Below, one piece after another: positions 18,375 through 28,242 of a stretch of DNA of 64,000 nt; within the stretch, counting starts at the first letter, position 1; each line of letters starts with the position of its first letter. A program made the position numbers and the translations under genes. This DNA is from Archaeoglobales archaeon (lineage in GTDB: Archaea; Halobacteriota; Archaeoglobi; Archaeoglobales; Archaeoglobaceae), in contig JAAOZI010000031.1 of assembly GCA_011605865.1 (NCBI GenBank), positions 1 through 64,000 on the forward strand, read 5' to 3'. The notes beneath the pieces were generated by a model. It was given only the letters and a program-made list of their open reading frames with translations. It made no database searches and had not been told where the DNA came from.

Positions 18375-19676
18375 ATGGATTTAGGAGAATTTGAGGTTTA
18401 CAGGATAGACAGCTATGGATACGACGAAACCCCTAAGACAATCGCCCCAAAGAGCAGGAATTTCATTGTTTTTAAGCCAAGAAATGCGATTGAAGTATCA
18501 AAAATACTGAAATTTGCAAATGAGAGAAAAATTCCGGTTTTTGTTAGGGGAGGAGGTACGGGGCTAAGTGCAGGAGCTGTTCCGACGCTAGATGGAATTC
18601 TTATCTCGACCGAGAGGATGAAAGAAATAGAAATCGATGTTCGGAACAGATTAGCCATATGTGAGGCAGGCGTCACTCTCGATGAGCTTACGAAAGCAGC
18701 AGAAAAGCATGGGCTCAGTTTTCCGCCAAAACCGGGAGCCGAAAATGCTACAGTGGGAGGCATGATAGCAACAAATGCCGGGGGAGTTAGGGCGATGAAA
18801 TTTGGAGTTATTAGGAACTACGTTCTTGGACTTGAAATCGTCTTGCCGGATGGTAGGATTATGAAGTTTGGCGGAAAGACAATTAAAAATTCCGCTGGTT
18901 ATCCTTTACTCCAGCTTTTTATCGGCAGTGAGGGGACTCTTGGAGTTATAACTAAGGCAATAATCCGCCTTTTTCCTCAGTTAAGGGATATGAGCATGCT
19001 GGCTATTCCTTTCAGAAACATCGAGGATGCGATGGAATATTCAATTGAGACTTGTAGAAAATTGACCCCACTTGGACTTGAATACATGGAAAAAAGGGCT
19101 GTAGAAATCGGAGAAAGTGTTAGCGGGAAAAGATGGGTTAGCAAGGAGGGTGAAGCTCATATTCTTTCCATATTTGAACACAAATGGGAAGCCGAGGAAA
19201 GTGCTGAAATAGCATACAGCTGTAATGCCGTAGATGTTTTTCTGGCCAGTCCAAAGGAGCAGAGGGATCTATTAGACATAAGAAGCAAGATTTACCTTGG
19301 AATTAAAAATAGGATCATCGAAATCCTGGATATCTGCGTTCCACCGGCATCAATATTAGAATACCTTCGAAAAAGCGACGAAATTGCAAGAAAGTATGGT
19401 ATAGATGTTATAACCTACGGCCACGTTGGTGACGGTAATTTGCATCAGCATCCGTTAATCTTTGAAGGCTGGGAAAGGGTTTACTGGAATTTTAGGAGAG
19501 AAATAATGAGACTTGCAGTTGAAATGGACGGAACCATAAGCGGAGAACATGGAATCGGAGAAATAAAGAGAGATGAGCTCGCAGAGCTTTTTCCTGAGCA
19601 GTACAGTATAATGAGAAAAATAAAAGAAATCTTTGATCCTAACGGTATTCTGAATCCTGGAAAGATATTTAAATGA
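18375..19676 (+). CDS. FAD-linked oxidase, D-lactate/glycolate dehydrogenase-like
   Basis: A 433-residue VAO-family flavoprotein. The FAD-binding PP-loop is VFVRGGGTGLSAGAVP (about 53-68); KPGAENATVGGMIATNAGG and GSEGTLGVITKAIIRL complete the N-terminal domain. The cap/C-terminal part has VITYGHVGDGNLHQHP, with catalytic metal-site histidines, and SGEHGIGEIKRDEL. These match D-lactate dehydrogenase (cytochrome-type) and GlcD. Archaeoglobales use such enzymes in lactate oxidation, but here the gene lies alone after rnp4, without an FeS partner or lactate permease, so the substrate (D-lactate, glycolate or another 2-hydroxy acid) is open. Confidence 0.85.
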   Translation: MDLGEFEVYRIDSYGYDETPKTIAPKSRNFIVFKPRNAIEVSKILKFANERKIPVFVRGGGTGLSAGAVPTLDGILISTERMKEIEIDVRNRLAICEAGVTLDELTKAAEKHGLSFPPKPGAENATVGGMIATNAGGVRAMKFGVIRNYVLGLEIVLPDGRIMKFGGKTIKNSAGYPLLQLFIGSEGTLGVITKAIIRLFPQLRDMSMLAIPFRNIEDAMEYSIETCRKLTPLGLEYMEKRAVEIGESVSGKRWVSKEGEAHILSIFEHKWEAEESAEIAYSCNAVDVFLASPKEQRDLLDIRSKIYLGIKNRIIEILDICVPPASILEYLRKSDEIARKYGIDVITYGHVGDGNLHQHPLIFEGWERVYWNFRREIMRLAVEMDGTISGEHGIGEIKRDELAELFPEQYSIMRKIKEIFDPNGILNPGKIFK

Positions 19677-20325
19677 CTAAGGTTCCGATTTTTTCCCCAT
19701 TGACGATTCTCTTTATGTTTTCAGGCTCTCCTCTGAATACTACTGCTTTAATCTTACTTCTTTCTAAAATCTTCACAGCAAGAATATCCATCACAACATT
19801 AACGCCGGCCTTTGCCTGCTCTTTAGCAACGAGCATCAGCAATTCTCTTGGGCTTATCTTTTCGAACTTATAAGCATTGGGATTTTTTCTTGGATCTTCG
19901 GAATATATTCCGTCAACAGAAGTAGCGTTTAAGAACAAATCAGCTCCGACGAATTCGGCAAGCAACGCTGCAGTGGCGTCAGTCGTGTGCCCCGGAAAAG
20001 TTCCACCCATCACAACAGCTTTGTAATTTTTACTTAATTCTTCAGCTTCTATAAAATTTTCTGGTATCCTTTTTGCCGAATTCTTCATTGCAAATGCCAA
20101 AAGCATCGCATTTATTCTTGTAACTGCAATTCCTAAATAATCGCACATAACTTCATTTGCTCCCAGATTTCTGGCTTTCTCTATTAGTTCTCTTGCCATT
20201 TTACCCCCGCCGACTACGACGAATAGTTTGTTCTCTTCGGCTATTTCATCTAGGACGTTTGCAAACTCTCTAATTCTCTCAACCCCTTCAAAAACTGAAC
20301 CGCCTAATGACAACACGATTTTCAT
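19669..20325 (-). CDS. pyrH: UMP kinase
   Basis: Amino-acid-kinase-fold UMP kinase (218 aa) making UDP from UMP and ATP. It has LSLGGSVFEG at the nucleotide loop, VVGGGKMARELIEKAR, the UMP-binding LGIAVTRINAMLLA, GGTFPGHTTDATAALLAE, which binds phosphate and UMP, and NATSVDGIYSEDPRKNPNA. Archaeal-type PyrH lacks the bacterial allosteric extension, consistent with the short length. It is the last gene of the operon starting with the NrfD-type gene; it overlaps the DUF763 gene by 4 bp and converges on the flavoprotein gene with an 8 bp overlap. Confidence 0.94.
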   Translation of the reverse strand: MKIVLSLGGSVFEGVERIREFANVLDEIAEENKLFVVVGGGKMARELIEKARNLGANEVMCDYLGIAVTRINAMLLAFAMKNSAKRIPENFIEAEELSKNYKAVVMGGTFPGHTTDATAALLAEFVGADLFLNATSVDGIYSEDPRKNPNAYKFEKISPRELLMLVAKEQAKAGVNVVMDILAVKILERSKIKAVVFRGEPENIKRIVNGEKIGTLVI

Positions 20326-21353
20326 ACTCTCAACCTATCCAAGGCCTTTTCCTTTTCAAAACTGCTTAGCTGTGTCTGCTTTAAAACATCGCTCAAAAAC
20401 CGGATTACCTCATCGTAAACTTCTCTTCTAATCGGAAACGGGACTCCATCTTTTCCTCCGACAGCGAAGCAGTATTTTGCGGGATCTTGCTTGTCGTATT
20501 CAACGTTGTAAATTAAGTCAGATATCAATGCCAACGCTCTTATGGTCTCTCTCCCGATTCCCCTTATAAGAAGCAGATCTTCGAAGTTCTCCACTTGTAA
20601 GTTATACGCTTTTTCTACGGCTTTCCAGTCTATTTTTCTGGGTACGTAGAAGGCATTTCCTTTTCTGGAGATTGAAATTAGTTTTTCATAGTCCTTTCTA
20701 AATGTTCCATCTCGCACTAAATCGACTATTAACTTTCTGGATTCTTTGCTTCTTTTTGAAACCATGTTTATTACTCTTTCTTCGAATCTCTCAGTTATTA
20801 TTCCGCTGTGCACATCATCGAGTTCTGGAATTTTGGTATACACTTCCCAGTGATATCTCCTAGCCATCTTTTCTTCGGGATTCATCCCTTGCTGGACAAC
20901 GGTGAAATGTTTTTTTGTGAAAAAGACGGCGTGATGGTAAAGGGTATATCCGTCTATCAATGCAGAATTGTCGGCTTTGGCAGCTAATCTGCTGAACTTG
21001 ATTAGCATTTCCGCATCCGCACCAACTTCTTCGGACATTTTCATTATTTCTTCGGGCGTTTTTAAACTGTTCTCTCCTTTCCCACCAGCGACTCTTATTT
21101 CGAATTCGGGATTATTGAGCACAGCCTTTAGAACTCCTGTCAGAACAGTTGTAGAGCCGCTAGAATTCCAGTCAAAGCCGAGAACATTTGAAAAAGATTG
21201 GAAGAATATCGGATCTGAAATTCTTTTTAAGAACTCAAGTTCCCCATATTCTATAATTATTATTTTTACAATTTGATTCGCAAGCTTTTTCATTTTGCTC
21301 AGAAGCCAGTAAGGAGCTTTGCCGTCGTGGAGAGGCAGATAAATCTCCTTCAT
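20322..21353 (-). CDS. DUF763-family protein
   Basis: A 343-residue member of DUF763 (PF05559), a family of unknown function in archaea and some bacteria. Visible marks are the N-terminal LPLHDGKAPYWLLSKMKKLA, the phrase FQSFSNVLGFDWNSSGSTTV, a HAVFFTKKHFTVVQQGMNPE strand, ARRYHWE, VHSGI, and a helix-hairpin-helix-like stretch FEDLLLIRGIGRETIRALAL that suggests nucleic-acid binding. It overlaps archease (4 bp) and pyrH (4 bp), so it is cotranscribed with tRNA/RNA-processing genes. A nucleic-acid role is inferred from the HhH-like motif and context only. Confidence 0.8.
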   Translation of the reverse strand: MKEIYLPLHDGKAPYWLLSKMKKLANQIVKIIIIEYGELEFLKRISDPIFFQSFSNVLGFDWNSSGSTTVLTGVLKAVLNNPEFEIRVAGGKGENSLKTPEEIMKMSEEVGADAEMLIKFSRLAAKADNSALIDGYTLYHHAVFFTKKHFTVVQQGMNPEEKMARRYHWEVYTKIPELDDVHSGIITERFEERVINMVSKRSKESRKLIVDLVRDGTFRKDYEKLISISRKGNAFYVPRKIDWKAVEKAYNLQVENFEDLLLIRGIGRETIRALALISDLIYNVEYDKQDPAKYCFAVGGKDGVPFPIRREVYDEVIRFLSDVLKQTQLSSFEKEKALDRLRV

Positions 21354-21754
21354 ATATCAACGACTATGAAAGCTGCGAGTTTTCCGTTCTCTCTTCTTAT
21401 GCCGAACTTGTGCATTGTTATGGCTTTTGGCTCTACTTTCACAGCTTCTCTGCCAAATTTGCTGCCAACTATTGTCCCTTCAGCTTTCATGTTCTTGATC
21501 CTGACTTTTACTTTTTTTCCAGCAAAGAATTGAGTTTCAAAAAGGAAGAGAAGCTCGTTAAGCCATCTGTAGAGAAGCAAATCTTCTTCATCAGCTTCAA
21601 CTTCTACAGTTCGCGTTTCAGCTTCTTTTATTGCATCAACCTTTACAAAAGCTTCATAGAAAGCATAGGCTGAGTTTTCAAGAAGCTCTTCTAAGCTATT
21701 ACCGTATACCTCAAAAGCTATGTCTGCTGTATGGTCAATAAAGCGGTATTTCAT
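21350..21754 (-). CDS. Archease (RtcB tRNA ligase activator)
   Basis: A 134-residue archease, which stimulates guanylylation and turnover of the RtcB tRNA-splicing ligase and widens NTP use. It starts with the signature KYRFIDHTADIAFEVYG. The conserved metal-binding Asp of DHTAD is present, as are EEDLLLYRWLNELLFLFET and the ending KAITMHKFGI-to-FIVVDI. Its ATG overlaps the TGA of the out-of-frame trmJ tail (ATGA), and its stop overlaps DUF763. RtcB itself is not in the window. Confidence 0.92.
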   Translation of the reverse strand: MKYRFIDHTADIAFEVYGNSLEELLENSAYAFYEAFVKVDAIKEAETRTVEVEADEEDLLLYRWLNELLFLFETQFFAGKKVKVRIKNMKAEGTIVGSKFGREAVKVEPKAITMHKFGIRRENGKLAAFIVVDI

Positions 21755-21913
21755 GATGTTAAATTTTCCTCTTTGGATTTTTCTTTTTCGGTCCTGAGTT
21801 TCTTTATGAATGATATCGTTTTTGTAAAAATTCCCATAAGGCTTTCGAATTCGTAGTCTCTCATCCTGGCCCTACCGAGAACCCTTCTTAGTGTTACTAT
21901 CTCTCTTTCTCCT
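21751..21913 (-). other. Out-of-frame C-terminal tail of trmJ
   Basis: In the +1 frame relative to trmJ, the sequence reads REIVTLRRVLGRARMRDYEF and continues about 30 residues to a TGA at 21753-21751 that overlaps the archease ATG. REIVTLRRVLGRA is the usual TrmJ C-terminal helix, and the ATGA overlap is the normal operon junction. The break is therefore a single-base indel near an AAA run, either recent or a sequencing error. Confidence 0.75.
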
Positions 21914-22468
21914 TACAGCTGGGAAATCTATCAGCTCCATCAGTTCCGAAACTTTGCTTATCATTATTTCTATATCTCCCGCTGTGGCAAGCTTTTCTTC
22001 GCTGGTTTTTTTGCTACTCAGTTCGTATAATATAACGGCAACTGCATGACTAACGTTCATCACAGGATAAATATCACTGGTTGGTATTTTCACCAATACG
22101 TGGCACATTTCAAGTTCTTCGTTCAGCAGTCCATAGTCTTCCCTGCCAAAAAGAATTGCAACTTCTCCTTCTATAAACTCCTTTAATTCATTGGGGGTTA
22201 ACATTGGTTTTCTGAAGTACCTGTACTCTCCTCCTGAGATACCAGTTGTTCCAACAACCAGATTGAACTTTGAAAGGAAAGAATTTAGATCCTCAATTTT
22301 CCTAGCCTTTTCGAGCAATTCTCTGGCATTTGCGGCAGTTTTGAAACTTTCTTCGGTCACCTTGCATTTATAAAGCCAGAGGTTTTCATACCCGAAATTC
22401 TTTAAAACTCTGGCTATAAACCCAACGTTTTCCGGGATTTTTAGCTCCACTAGTACAACATGGATCAT
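21872..22468 (-). CDS. trmJ: tRNA (cytidine/uridine-2'-O-)-methyltransferase TrmJ, frameshifted
   Basis: SPOUT-class methyltransferase that methylates the ribose at position 32 of tRNA. The open frame has 198 residues: HVVLVELKIPENVGFIARVL at the start, VVGTTGISGG, the SAM-knot region EVAILFGREDYGLLNEELE, and YPVMNVSHAVAVILYEL. It then ends abruptly in an atypical NTKKGSR tail. One base of shift near 21905-21915 restores a typical C-terminus running to the archease start (see next feature). The catalytic SPOUT core is intact, so a truncated but folded enzyme is possible. The start overlaps the cytochrome stop by 4 bp. Confidence 0.85.
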   Translation of the reverse strand: MIHVVLVELKIPENVGFIARVLKNFGYENLWLYKCKVTEESFKTAANARELLEKARKIEDLNSFLSKFNLVVGTTGISGGEYRYFRKPMLTPNELKEFIEGEVAILFGREDYGLLNEELEMCHVLVKIPTSDIYPVMNVSHAVAVILYELSSKKTSEEKLATAGDIEIMISKVSELMELIDFPAVRRKRDSNTKKGSR

Positions 22469-22878
22469 CTATGTGGATCATGACAGTAAGTGCATATAAC
22501 TCCGCTTCCATGGCCTTCATCAACGACTTTTATTGCGGTTCTTCCCGCAATTTCTTTGTGACAGATGAGGCAACTATCTCTGCTTTTTTCGACGATCACG
22601 CTTTCTTTGGTTCTGAGCTTTACGTGTTCAGCCCCGTATCCGTGACAGACTTCACACTCTACGCTTGAATGATTCCCGGAGATCCAAGTTCTGTAGACCT
22701 TCAAATGACACTCCCTGCAAACTTCGCTTTGTACAAAACTGACTTTTCTCTCTTTTTCCTTTTCTACCCAGTTTTCTACGCTTCTCTCTTTCACTACGGG
22801 GGACAAATGGAAAGTGTACACATATAGTGCTCCGTAAACGAGAATTGCAAAGATTAAAACAATTTGCCAGGCTTTCAT
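22465..22878 (-). CDS. Membrane-anchored tetrahaem cytochrome c
   Basis: A 137-residue protein with one N-terminal transmembrane helix (QIVLIFAILVYGALYVYTF) and four haem-binding CxxCH motifs: CRECH (54-58), CEVCH (75-79), CLICH (103-107) and CTYCH (129-133). Further histidines at about 70, 85, 123 and 136 could be axial ligands. It should face outside the membrane and pass electrons to or from the NrfD/FeS pair encoded directly upstream (4 bp overlap). The layout resembles NapC/NrfH or NrfB-type electron carriers in miniature. The final acceptor or donor is not in the window. Confidence 0.87.
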   Translation of the reverse strand: MKAWQIVLIFAILVYGALYVYTFHLSPVVKERSVENWVEKEKERKVSFVQSEVCRECHLKVYRTWISGNHSSVECEVCHGYGAEHVKLRTKESVIVEKSRDSCLICHKEIAGRTAIKVVDEGHGSGVICTYCHDPHR

Positions 22879-23546
22879 TCAACCACCGTATCCAAGTTTA
22901 GGTAGAAAACTCTCGGATTAGTTCCGGCTTCAGGTTTCAGGACGCTGAATCTTTTAGATTTTAGAATTTCATAAACTTCACTCCCCTCTTTGAATTCTCC
23001 GAATTTTCTCGCACCAGTTGGACAAACTAGCACACAGGCAGGCTTTAAACCCCTTCTTATTCTGTGGTAACAGAATGTGCATTTGTCCGTGACCTTTTCT
23101 TCGGGATGTACAAAAGTAGCACCATATGGACAGGCTATAATGCAGTACTTGCAACCTATGCATACGTCTTTATCCACTAAAACGATGCCATCAACGTGGA
23201 ATCTTGCTGATACTGGGCAAACATTTACGCATGGAGCATTTGAGCAGTGATTGCAGAGTTTCGGAACGAAAAATCCATTTTTGGCTTTTATCTTTATGAA
23301 TGGGTTATCTTTTGTGTTCATTACGATCTTTTTCCCATCTAAATAACTCTCGATCCAGGTTCTGGATATCGGTAACTCTAGGGGGACTCCATTTTCTATT
23401 TTGCAGGCAATTACGCACTTACCGCAGCCTATACACTTCTCAACATCGATTATCATCGCATAACCCTTGCTACTTTTCAGAGAAGCGATTGAAACCGATG
23501 CTAAGGGAAGTGAAAGGATTAACTTCAGAAAGTCTCTACGATTCAT
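22875..23546 (-). CDS. Exported four-cluster ferredoxin subunit (NrfC/HybA/DsrO type)
   Basis: A 223-residue electron-transfer subunit with cysteines for four [4Fe-4S] clusters in CIGCGKCVIACK, CNHCSNAPCVNVCP, CIGCKYCIIACPYG and CTFCYHRIRRGLKPACVLVC. The N-terminus NRRDFLKLILSLPLASVS resembles a Tat signal, but the twin arginine is followed by D-F-L-K (RRDFLK), the standard Tat consensus, so export to the outer face is likely. ATG 23546 starts exactly at this signal. It overlaps the NrfD gene (11 bp) and the cytochrome gene (4 bp), making a three-subunit membrane complex without a catalytic molybdopterin subunit. Confidence 0.9.
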   Translation of the reverse strand: MNRRDFLKLILSLPLASVSIASLKSSKGYAMIIDVEKCIGCGKCVIACKIENGVPLELPISRTWIESYLDGKKIVMNTKDNPFIKIKAKNGFFVPKLCNHCSNAPCVNVCPVSARFHVDGIVLVDKDVCIGCKYCIIACPYGATFVHPEEKVTDKCTFCYHRIRRGLKPACVLVCPTGARKFGEFKEGSEVYEILKSKRFSVLKPEAGTNPRVFYLNLDTVVE

Positions 23547-24753
23547 GTTCCACCTCCATTGGAAGGAGCTTGTATAGGATGTAGTACAGCAGCAAAGCAA
23601 GAGAAATCGCCCCAACGGCGAAAATGGCTTCCAACGGATGTACGGGAGGTGTTACGCTCATTCCTGAAATCTGCTTGGACGTCTGTCCTGCATAGACGAA
23701 ATCGAATCTGAATGCAAAGATACCAACAAGCGATAGGAATGATGCTACAAAGAGGGCATCTAAGTTCTTTCTACCAGCGATTATGGCTAGGATGGGTGCT
23801 ATTATTCCGACGAAAATTTCCAGGAACCAGAAATTCAATGCAAACTTTCCGAAAATCAAATTATTAACAGAATAGCTCGCCAAATAGGACACAGCCGGAT
23901 ATCCGATTATCACTGTCCTCCATAGGATGAAGATTGAAGATGCGAAAAGGGAATAGAGAAGCAGTTTTCCTAGAAGGAAGACCGCTTTCATTTTTCTTTC
24001 ATCTGACTTTCCGGTTGTCCAAGATGTGATTATCGTCGAAAAGATTAGGACGGCTGAACCGGCAGTAATTGCTGTTAATACAAAGTAAACTGGATTTGAA
24101 GCATCATTCCATAAGGGAATGTAACTCGCAGAGAAAAGAGCACCAAGATTGCTGTATGCAAGAATAGCCGTGATTAAGGCTAGAAAACCGATTGATTTTG
24201 CAAAGCTCATGTCTAAATCCCTGTTTTGTTTGGAAAAGAAACCTCCAAGGAATTTAAGGGAAAGAAGTTTTGAAATGAATGCCTTAAATCCTCTCTTTTC
24301 GGATTGTTTAAGCAGATCTGCTCTGAAATAAAACCAGCCCTCAAGAATCAGAAAGAGCAGTTCCAGAACATAGAAAATTATCATCCAGTACATAACACTC
24401 ATCGGATTTGCGTAGCCGAGCAACGCATTGCCCGCCCGCTCGATTCTCTCTAGATCTACGGCGATCGTTATCAGTCCAACCGAAATCGTAACTATTGATA
24501 TTAAAATTGCTTCTTTGATAATTGGCTCGAGCTCCTTTATTCCCAGTATTTCCCCAGCTGAGGCGATCGCTCCGGTGCCTATGAGAACCAAAAAGACGTA
24601 TAGGGCAACCAGAAGACGCCAGGGATTTCCAACCGCAGATTCGTATGGTTCTATCGGAATTACGGTACCAAAGTGCATCTGATAGGCCGCAAGAAGACCA
24701 GAAGCAACTAAGACTAGCAGAGCTGAAATTAAAATAAATTCTCTGGTCTTCAA
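23536..24753 (-). CDS. NrfD/PsrC-type quinone-interacting membrane subunit
   Basis: A 405-residue polytopic protein with about ten predicted transmembrane helices, beginning REFILISALLVLVASGLLAA. Family marks include NPWRLLVALYVFLVLIGTG near the start and DLERIERAGNALLGYANPMS with a conserved arginine pattern around helix 3-4, typical of NrfD/PsrC menaquinone sites. It exchanges electrons between menaquinone and the FeS subunit. It is the first gene of the operon; its promoter lies in the 92 bp divergent spacer shared with mtd. The complex could oxidise menaquinol toward the cytochrome, or do the reverse. Confidence 0.88.
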   Translation of the reverse strand: MKTREFILISALLVLVASGLLAAYQMHFGTVIPIEPYESAVGNPWRLLVALYVFLVLIGTGAIASAGEILGIKELEPIIKEAILISIVTISVGLITIAVDLERIERAGNALLGYANPMSVMYWMIIFYVLELLFLILEGWFYFRADLLKQSEKRGFKAFISKLLSLKFLGGFFSKQNRDLDMSFAKSIGFLALITAILAYSNLGALFSASYIPLWNDASNPVYFVLTAITAGSAVLIFSTIITSWTTGKSDERKMKAVFLLGKLLLYSLFASSIFILWRTVIIGYPAVSYLASYSVNNLIFGKFALNFWFLEIFVGIIAPILAIIAGRKNLDALFVASFLSLVGIFAFRFDFVYAGQTSKQISGMSVTPPVHPLEAIFAVGAISLALLLYYILYKLLPMEVEHES

Positions 24754-24845
24754 ACTCTCACCTCTGCAAAGATCTTTTAACGCTTTTTAAGTTTTTCCAA
24801 ACTTAAATAGGAAAGGTTAAATAGTAGTTAAAAGATTCATCATAC
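24754..24845. promoter_or_regulatory. Divergent promoter region between nrfD-like operon and mtd
   Basis: The 92 bp spacer serves both directions. For mtd, CTTAAATAG at 24801-24809 lies about 40 nt before the ATG at 24846. On the other strand AACTTAAAAAGCG (about 24782-24794) is a TATA candidate for the NrfD operon. Respiratory and F420-dependent carbon genes thus share one control region. Confidence 0.4.
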
Positions 24846-25670
24846 ATGAGCAAAGTTAAAGTTGGAGTTTTGAAAATGGGTGCAATTGGGACAGCCGTAA
24901 TTCTTGAATACCTTTTCGACGAGAGAGCGGATAGGGAAGATATTGAGGTTAGAGTTGTAACAAGTGGAGCGAAAATGCAACCCGAAGAGGCTGTTGTTGC
25001 AGAGAAATTAAAAGAATTTAATCCAGATCTAATAATAGTAGCATCACCAAACGCAGCCCTTCCAGGTCCTAAAGCAGCTAGAGAGGCTTTTGCTGGAAAA
25101 CCTGTTATTGTGATCAGCGATGCTCCGGCTAAAAAAGCGAAGGATGAACTGAAAGAGAAGGGCTTTGGATACATATTCATAAACGCGGATTCGATGATAG
25201 GAGCAAGAAGAGAATTCTTGGATCCAACAGAAATGGCTTTGTTTAATGCAGATGTTTTGAAAGTTCTGGCGGCAACAGGGGCTTTAAGAGCCGTACAGGA
25301 AGCCATCGACAAGGTTATAGAAGACATAAAGGCTGGAAAGAAGCCTGAGTTGCCTCAGCTAATAATAACGGCTGAAAAGGCGGTAGAAGCAGGAAAATTC
25401 AGCAACCCATATGCAAGGGCAAAAGCAATAGCCGCTTATTATATTGCTGAAAAAGTTTCAGATCTGACGACGCGTGGCTGCTTTGTGGAGAAAGACTACA
25501 ATGTATACGTCCCATTGATAGCTGCTGCACATGAAATGATGAGGGTTGCGGCAATATTGGCCGATGAGGCCAGAGAAATAGAGAAGTATGGAGACAAAGT
25601 CTACAGAAATCCACACGCAAGGGATGGAAAGGTTCTTTCGAAAGTTGAACTTATAAGTAAGCCTCAGTAA
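24846..25670 (+). CDS. mtd: F420-dependent methylene-tetrahydromethanopterin dehydrogenase
   Basis: Cytosolic enzyme of 274 residues that interconverts methylene-H4MPT and methenyl-H4MPT with coenzyme F420, a central step of C1 metabolism (lactate or acetyl-CoA oxidation, or CO2 fixation). The start VKVGVLKMGAIGTAVILEYL, RVVTSGAKMQPEEA, VASPNAALPGPKAAREAFA and DSMIGARREFLDPTEMALFN are characteristic of Mtd. The length is that of the family. It is a single-gene unit with its own promoter, and a T-run follows the stop. Other H4MPT genes are not in the window, but cdhDE at 60-63 kb belong to the same pathway. Confidence 0.97.
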   Translation: MSKVKVGVLKMGAIGTAVILEYLFDERADREDIEVRVVTSGAKMQPEEAVVAEKLKEFNPDLIIVASPNAALPGPKAAREAFAGKPVIVISDAPAKKAKDELKEKGFGYIFINADSMIGARREFLDPTEMALFNADVLKVLAATGALRAVQEAIDKVIEDIKAGKKPELPQLIITAEKAVEAGKFSNPYARAKAIAAYYIAEKVSDLTTRGCFVEKDYNVYVPLIAAAHEMMRVAAILADEAREIEKYGDKVYRNPHARDGKVLSKVELISKPQ

Positions 25671-28170: not shown

Positions 28171-28242
28171 TGGACTCGCCGGGATTTGAACCCGGGGCCT
28201 CCGCCTCGCGAAGGCGGCGCTCTACCGCTGAGCTACGAGCCC
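28171..28242 (-). tRNA. tRNA-Ala (anticodon CGC)
   Basis: A 72-nt cloverleaf on the minus strand. The acceptor stem GGGCTCG pairs with CGAGTCC (one G-T pair), followed by discriminator A. D arm: GCTC-AGCGGTA-GAGC. Anticodon arm: CCGCC-TTCGCGA-GGCGG, giving anticodon CGC, alanine codon GCG. T arm: CCGGG-TTCAAAT-CCCGG. CCA is not encoded and there is no intron. An IS derivative begins about 4 nt upstream of the 5' end, so the native promoter has been replaced or displaced. A T-rich stretch follows the 3' end. Confidence 0.95.

Follow-up and report, generated by a model that had tools for sequence, protein, structure and literature searches.

A NrfD, iron–sulfur and cytochrome gene trio in an Archaeoglobaceae archaeon as the probable outward-facing half of a six-subunit transmembrane redox complex

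The window, which is the whole 64,000-nucleotide stretch of DNA analysed here, lies on contig C31 of a metagenome-assembled genome of Archaeoglobaceae (G000; 1.27 Mb, 45 contigs, 84% complete). It holds a gene trio encoding a NrfD-type membrane protein, an Fe-S protein and a tetrahaem cytochrome, which is probably one half of a six-subunit complex spanning the membrane, namely the half that faces outward and reacts with quinone; the remaining subunits are encoded on contig C45. This proposal was built from sequence comparisons, namely gene content, an operon shared in relatives, co-occurrence and intact motifs.

The trio and its flanking genes

The following features were recognised in the window:
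23536..24753, minus strand: integral membrane subunit of the NrfD family (PF03916), 405 aa from a TTG start, with some 10 hydrophobic segments
22875..23546, minus strand: exported Fe-S subunit, 223 aa from the ATG at 23546, Tat-type signal MNRRDFLK (Fer4_11, E=1.5e-25)
22465..22878, minus strand: tetrahaem cytochrome c (cyt4), 137 aa, membrane-anchored (Cytochrome_C7, E=2e-6)
21872..22468, minus strand: trmJ, TrmJ/YjtD-family RNA methyltransferase gene (TIGR00050, 203 bits, above cut-off)
24754..24845, no strand: 92-bp spacer (measured gap) separating the divergent trio and mtd, containing AT-rich, TATA-like stretches

A sequence-only reading of this DNA had proposed a NrfD-type protein, an exported four-cluster Fe-S protein and a membrane-anchored tetrahaem cytochrome encoded by genes overlapping by 4-11 bp, and both the composition and the overlaps (11 bp for NrfD/Fe-S and 4 bp for Fe-S/cyt4) were borne out. 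The NrfD protein belonged to the NrfD family by its match to PF03916 (E=1.1e-32, 114.4 bits, gathering score 25.8), many of its ionisable residues were invariant in an 11-sequence alignment, and a Shine-Dalgarno-like GAGGTGA was found upstream of its TTG at 24753. AlphaFold gave a pLDDT of 45 for NrfD alone, and a phmmer search of NrfD against solved structures returned no match. The Fe-S subunit presented 16 Cys in four 4-Cys [4Fe-4S] sites, conserved in homologues together with the RR motif, and its closest solved relative was 2vpw_B, a Psr-type NrfC chain (E=2.6e-42), while its best NCBIfam matches, TtrB (184.3 bits) and DsrO (158.3 bits), both fell below the cut-off. The cyt4 protein included one N-terminal helix and CXXCH motifs at residues 54, 75, 103 and 129, and four CXXCH were observed in 20/20 homologues. 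Paralogues of the trio in the same genome were DsrO (35% identity) and DsrP (27%), and PADLOC found nothing. The further description of the trio as a quinone-linked outward module agreed with the NrfD family membership, the Tat signal, the c-haems and the presence of PF02621 menaquinone-biosynthesis genes in the genome.

Regarding the flanks, trmJ overlapped the cyt4 gene by 4 bp and adjoined the trio in 9/10 genomes of the window's genus (g1) and in G033; it is probably co-transcribed with the trio and no part of the redox complex. The operon had been described as running into tRNA genes. However, the genes downstream of cyt4 (trmJ, archease, DUF763 and pyrH) all code for proteins, the next one being that of a tRNA methylase, and the sole tRNA gene of the window (tRNA-Ala, 28171-28242) is placed on the other side of the trio. 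As for a 92-bp control region shared with mtd, the gap itself was confirmed, but not a conserved link, as G000 and G047 were the only ones of the relatives examined with mtd next to the trio; a functional link between the trio and mtd was rejected because this adjacency is not conserved. At the scale of the locus, it held true that none of the genes adjacent to the trio encodes a Mo, nitrite or sulfite reductase.

The second half and its linkage to the trio in relatives

A CXXCH scan of the whole genome revealed further multihaem genes, and a cluster on C45 (L056:7486-10180) was found to encode a 644-aa Fe-S protein and two cytochromes:
L056:9830-10180, minus strand: trihaem cytochrome (cyt3), lipoprotein-type
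L056:9427-9825, minus strand: pentahaem cytochrome (cyt5)

The 644-aa protein corresponded to a fused HdrE-HdrD (HdrDE), comprising a membrane region that resembles QmoC and in which three His are invariant, two Fe-S sites and two CCG domains (1.7e-38). The C-terminal CCG five-Cys motif, CX(n)CCX(n)CXXC, was present in 23/24 sequences, and the protein thus combined the b-type membrane domain and the HdrD part with a CCG non-cubane cluster motif that are expected from HdrDE.

Both cytochromes displayed unusual motifs. In 18 cyt3 homologues, an invariant CQCH (CXCH) was followed by a conserved YxxH, as found after CXXCH in cyt5, and a lipobox-like Cys was observed in 17/18 of them. This CQCH may represent an unconventional haem site, and a literature search retrieved no paper using 'CXCH' together with heme and cytochrome c. 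Besides five CXXCH, cyt5 and its homologues harbored an invariant lone Cys-His (around residues 79-80), which may be a haem site with a single thioether bond. Upstream of cyt3, the remnant of an ABC-transporter ATPase gene (49 aa with 63% identity) was detected at about L056 10237-10374 (minus strand), and an ABC transporter cluster occupied the matching site in G047 and G054.

The gene-neighbourhood survey of the trio, proposed along with the earlier reading, revealed an operon linked to HdrDE in three other genera. The order NrfD-FeS-cyt4-cyt3-cyt5-HdrDE formed one operon in G003, G006, G010, G013 and G022, and a contig of G012 began with the operon fragment cyt4-cyt3-cyt5-HdrDE, amounting to six genomes from three genera other than the window's in which the set was linked. 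In 11 genomes, namely the 10 of genus g1 and G033 from one sister genus, both halves were present and unlinked, and cyt3-cyt5-HdrDE were contiguous in all of them. The trio stayed together in the 17 Archaeoglobaceae genomes having it, the G054 NrfD being cut by a contig break, and in the window's genome the two halves sit on different contigs. The six linked genomes, in which the trio is joined to cyt3, cyt5 and HdrDE, speak against a minimal three-subunit complex devoid of a catalytic partner. The absence of a catalytic subunit is true of the locus, though probably not of the genome, HdrDE on the other contig is a strong candidate for this role, and the orphan-complex reading was probably an artefact of the split locus, an example of how a cluster read in isolation can pass for an orphan complex. 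That reading had itself named a distant but coregulated catalytic subunit of a known reductase as the observation that would speak against it, and a distant subunit is largely what was encountered, because the second half was always present, although unlinked, in genus g1 and G033.

Two side observations concerned the copy number of these modules. In the cluster of G013 (L047:7294-14553), NrfD was preceded by a further cyt3-cyt5 pair. G012 (L048:341-9398) carried an additional, divergent copy of the trio without cyt3/cyt5, behind which lay genes for a small protein and for hydrogenase-maturation-like proteins, which suggests another partner for the same module.

Co-occurrence was assessed in 57 genomes of the order, with thresholds of E < 1e-70 for the trio-type NrfD and E < 1e-20 for cyt5. 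The NrfD was found in 18/57 genomes and cyt5 in 17, all within those 18; the exception was G055, from another family, in which the trio was placed among 10- and 12-haem cytochromes without cyt3/cyt5. Among the 56 Archaeoglobaceae genomes, 17 had both the trio and cyt5 and 39 had neither, with no exception. The association, including G055, reached a Fisher p=1.3e-13, a value uncorrected for phylogeny, as genomes are not independent; in the six-gene genera co-occurrence follows trivially from linkage, and the independent cases come mainly from one genus and G033. In genomes without the trio and cyt3-cyt5, such as G001, G002, G014, G027 and G032, a fused HdrDE (57-60% identical) occurred alone, the one in G001 lying next to a pyrophosphatase-like gene in the arrangement reported for AF0755/AF0756 (PMC3949148).

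In the HdrDE tree, the sequences found alone, those from six-gene operons and those from split loci were each placed on one side of a branch, whereas the NrfD and Fe-S trees were less tidy. G047 grouped with G048 near the six-gene genera in the NrfD tree and with G000 and G054 in the HdrDE tree, and co-evolution by tree congruence was dropped owing to this conflict. The trio of G047 (L045:7989-14171, compared with window positions 19669-25670) was found in an identical mtd/trmJ setting, with a NrfD only 42-45% identical and flanks 75-91% identical, a configuration that suggests either in-place replacement or uneven rates and separate evolution of the trio. A phylum-wide profile search of 394 genomes found close NrfD relatives only in Archaeoglobales: the best matches outside this order reached about 1e-47, compared with 1e-126 or lower for trio NrfDs within Archaeoglobales. 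A scan of public genomes for relatives retrieved one locus, L032, probably G054 itself, which leaves room for relatives in bacteria.

Predicted electron path and alternative partners

NrfD-family subunits bind quinone, with outward-facing Fe-S and c-haem subunits, and proteins of the HdrDE type link quinol in the membrane to the reduction of disulfides in the cytoplasm. If the two halves assemble physically, electrons would pass between NrfD and menaquinone/menaquinol and travel along the outer face through the four-cluster Fe-S subunit and the 4+3+5 c-haems (12), and HdrE-HdrD, by its b-type membrane domain and its Fe-S/CCG domains, would connect them, in whichever direction, to a cytoplasmic disulfide/thiol couple. 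This substrate could be CoM-S-S-CoB in mcrA-bearing relatives, and DsrC or another thiol in the dsrAB-bearing and apparently mcrA-lacking genome of the window.

The genomic background is relevant here. The window's genome carries dsrAB, seen as DsrA with a DsrB-like neighbour and also present in G054, and a full dsrO-P-M-K-J cluster at L054. No mcrA was found in this 84%-complete genome, 16% of which is missing, so genome-wide absences refer to the recovered part. McrA was found in 5/10 genomes of the genus, and these mcrA-bearing members were without DsrA; each of them had one full-length fused HdrDE. This pattern of genes is compatible with the genus being that to which the cultivated methanogen Ca. 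Methanoglobus hypatiae belongs (PMC10945360). Another member, G048 (99% complete, 1.2 Mb), had neither McrA nor DsrA and retained the trio, the HdrDE set and an octahaem cytochrome.

Fused hdrDE genes have been studied in this group: that of A. fulgidus (AF0755) was co-induced with the Vht hydrogenase (PMC3949148), and that of Ca. M. hypatiae was highly expressed (PMC10945360). The latter is probably an orthologue of the genus HdrDE described here, given the single full-length copy in each mcrA-bearing genome. In published reconstructions of methanogenic Archaeoglobi, the fused HdrDE acts as the membrane heterodisulfide reductase and the electron transport chain was left unresolved (PMC10945360). 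If the trio and the two cytochromes belong to it, this heterodisulfide reductase would be a six-subunit, cytochrome-rich enzyme with a second, NrfD-type quinone site, which would change the proton accounting and open a route to extracellular partners. NrfD-like subunits have also been proposed as ion-pumping modules (PMC8076601). A far-reaching version of this proposal, quite unlikely to hold in full, would have an Archaeoglobales-specific Hmc-like complex with at least 12 c-haems connect the heterodisulfide pool of the cytoplasm, by electron exchange, with menaquinone or with acceptors/donors outside the cell. It would be a so far unrecognised part of energy conservation shared, within one genus, by methanogens (mcrA-bearing) and sulfite reducers, with the cyt3 CQCH and the cyt5 lone CH as unconventional haem sites.

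Alternatively, the trio could work on its own as a menaquinol:cytochrome c oxidoreductase in extracellular electron transfer, passing electrons from NrfD through cyt4 to an octahaem lipoprotein, with Fe(III), a further cytochrome or a partner cell as the final acceptor:
L055:10616-11710, minus strand: octahaem lipoprotein-type cytochrome, with homologues in G023 (56%) and G027 (51%)

The window's genome encodes this octahaem protein and an extracellular-type pentahaem cytochrome, the octahaem is full-length in 8/10 genomes of the genus, the related trio of G055 lies among its 10- and 12-haem cytochromes, and clusters of NrfD, FeS and multihaem proteins in Methanoperedenaceae were described as menaquinone:cytochrome c oxidoreductases (PMC7327174). 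However, beyond the genus the octahaem and the trio do not go together, the former being absent from the trio-bearing G003, G006, G010, G012, G013, G022 and G033; within the genus, it was not found in G047, and in G054 (G054:C146:1413-2132) it was reduced to fragments with stops and is probably decayed. Moreover, the trio and HdrD share one operon in three genera. As an account of the trio this alternative is doubtful, while extracellular electron transfer may occur, given the octahaem lipoprotein in most of the genus.

A second alternative takes the trio as a substitute for DsrJOP, providing periplasm-side subunits for DsrMKJOP or for another resident partner, such as a hydrogenase. This would accord with the dsrAB and full dsrOPMKJ genes of the genome, with the resemblance of the Fe-S subunit to the DsrO model and to the resident DsrO, and with the location of the extra G012 trio near hyp genes. 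It becomes highly improbable considering that DsrO, DsrP and DsrJ are already encoded in the genome, that the trio is retained in the DsrA-less genus members (G046-G053), and that its operon partner elsewhere is HdrDE and not DsrMK. Finally, a Mo-enzyme partner is unlikely, since a FwdB-like protein was the only molybdopterin protein found in the recovered genome and 8/10 genomes of the genus have a single one.

Comparison with known systems

The six-gene set, of which a literature search found no description, was compared with several known systems. As regards the Nrf nitrite reductase and the Psr, Ttr, Arr and other Mo reductases, the Fe-S subunit scored below the cut-offs of the NrfC (139.5 bits, cut-off 377.6) and TtrB (cut-off 416) models, and no gene for a catalytic NrfA or Mo-bisPGD subunit was adjacent to the trio. 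The NrfD-type menaquinone:cytochrome c oxidoreductases of Methanoperedenaceae also combine NrfD, a 4Fe-4S protein and multihaem cytochromes, but with no HdrD partner described. The trio alone resembles Nhc (NhcABCD), a simplified Hmc with NrfD, a four-cluster Fe-S protein and a multihaem cytochrome without an adjacent catalytic subunit (PMC8076601, PMC4215793); however, Nhc has a nine-haem cytochrome, an extra NhcD and no HdrD partner, whereas here HdrD is linked to the trio in relatives.

The HdrDE proteins of Archaeoglobus (AF0755) and Ca. Methanoglobus hypatiae are fusions of the same kind, but they have been treated as a stand-alone menaquinol-linked Hdr, while the present one has two cytochromes joined to it, along with the trio in relatives. 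DsrMKJOP offers counterparts in P (NrfD), O (Fe-S), J (c cytochrome), M (b cytochrome) and K (CCG protein), and a genuine copy is present separately in the window's genome (L054). It differs in having three c-haems on DsrJ, in contrast to twelve on three proteins and a fused HdrE-HdrD here, and scores remained below the cut-offs of DsrO (200 bits) and, for HdrDE, of DsrK (66.7 bits, cut-off 400), with no match of trio members to the DsrP and DsrJ models.

The Hmc complex of Desulfovibrio (HmcABCDEF) likewise joins a multihaem c cytochrome, a four-cluster periplasmic Fe-S protein and a NrfD-like subunit to b-type membrane and CCG (HdrD-like) subunits, thereby spanning the membrane. Subunits of these types are encoded together in G003, G006, G010, G013 and G022, and are split over two contigs in the window's genome. 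Unlike Hmc, with its single 16-haem HmcA, the haems here number 4+3+5 by CXXCH on three small cytochromes, the HmcE- and HmcF-like parts are fused, and no HmcD-like gene was noted; HmcB (99.7 bits, cut-off 420) and HmcF (63.3 bits, cut-off 750) scores were also far below their cut-offs. Failing both sets of models, which sets it apart from the known Hmc and Dsr, the predicted complex would be a distinct version of the Hmc/Dsr-type transmembrane redox complex.
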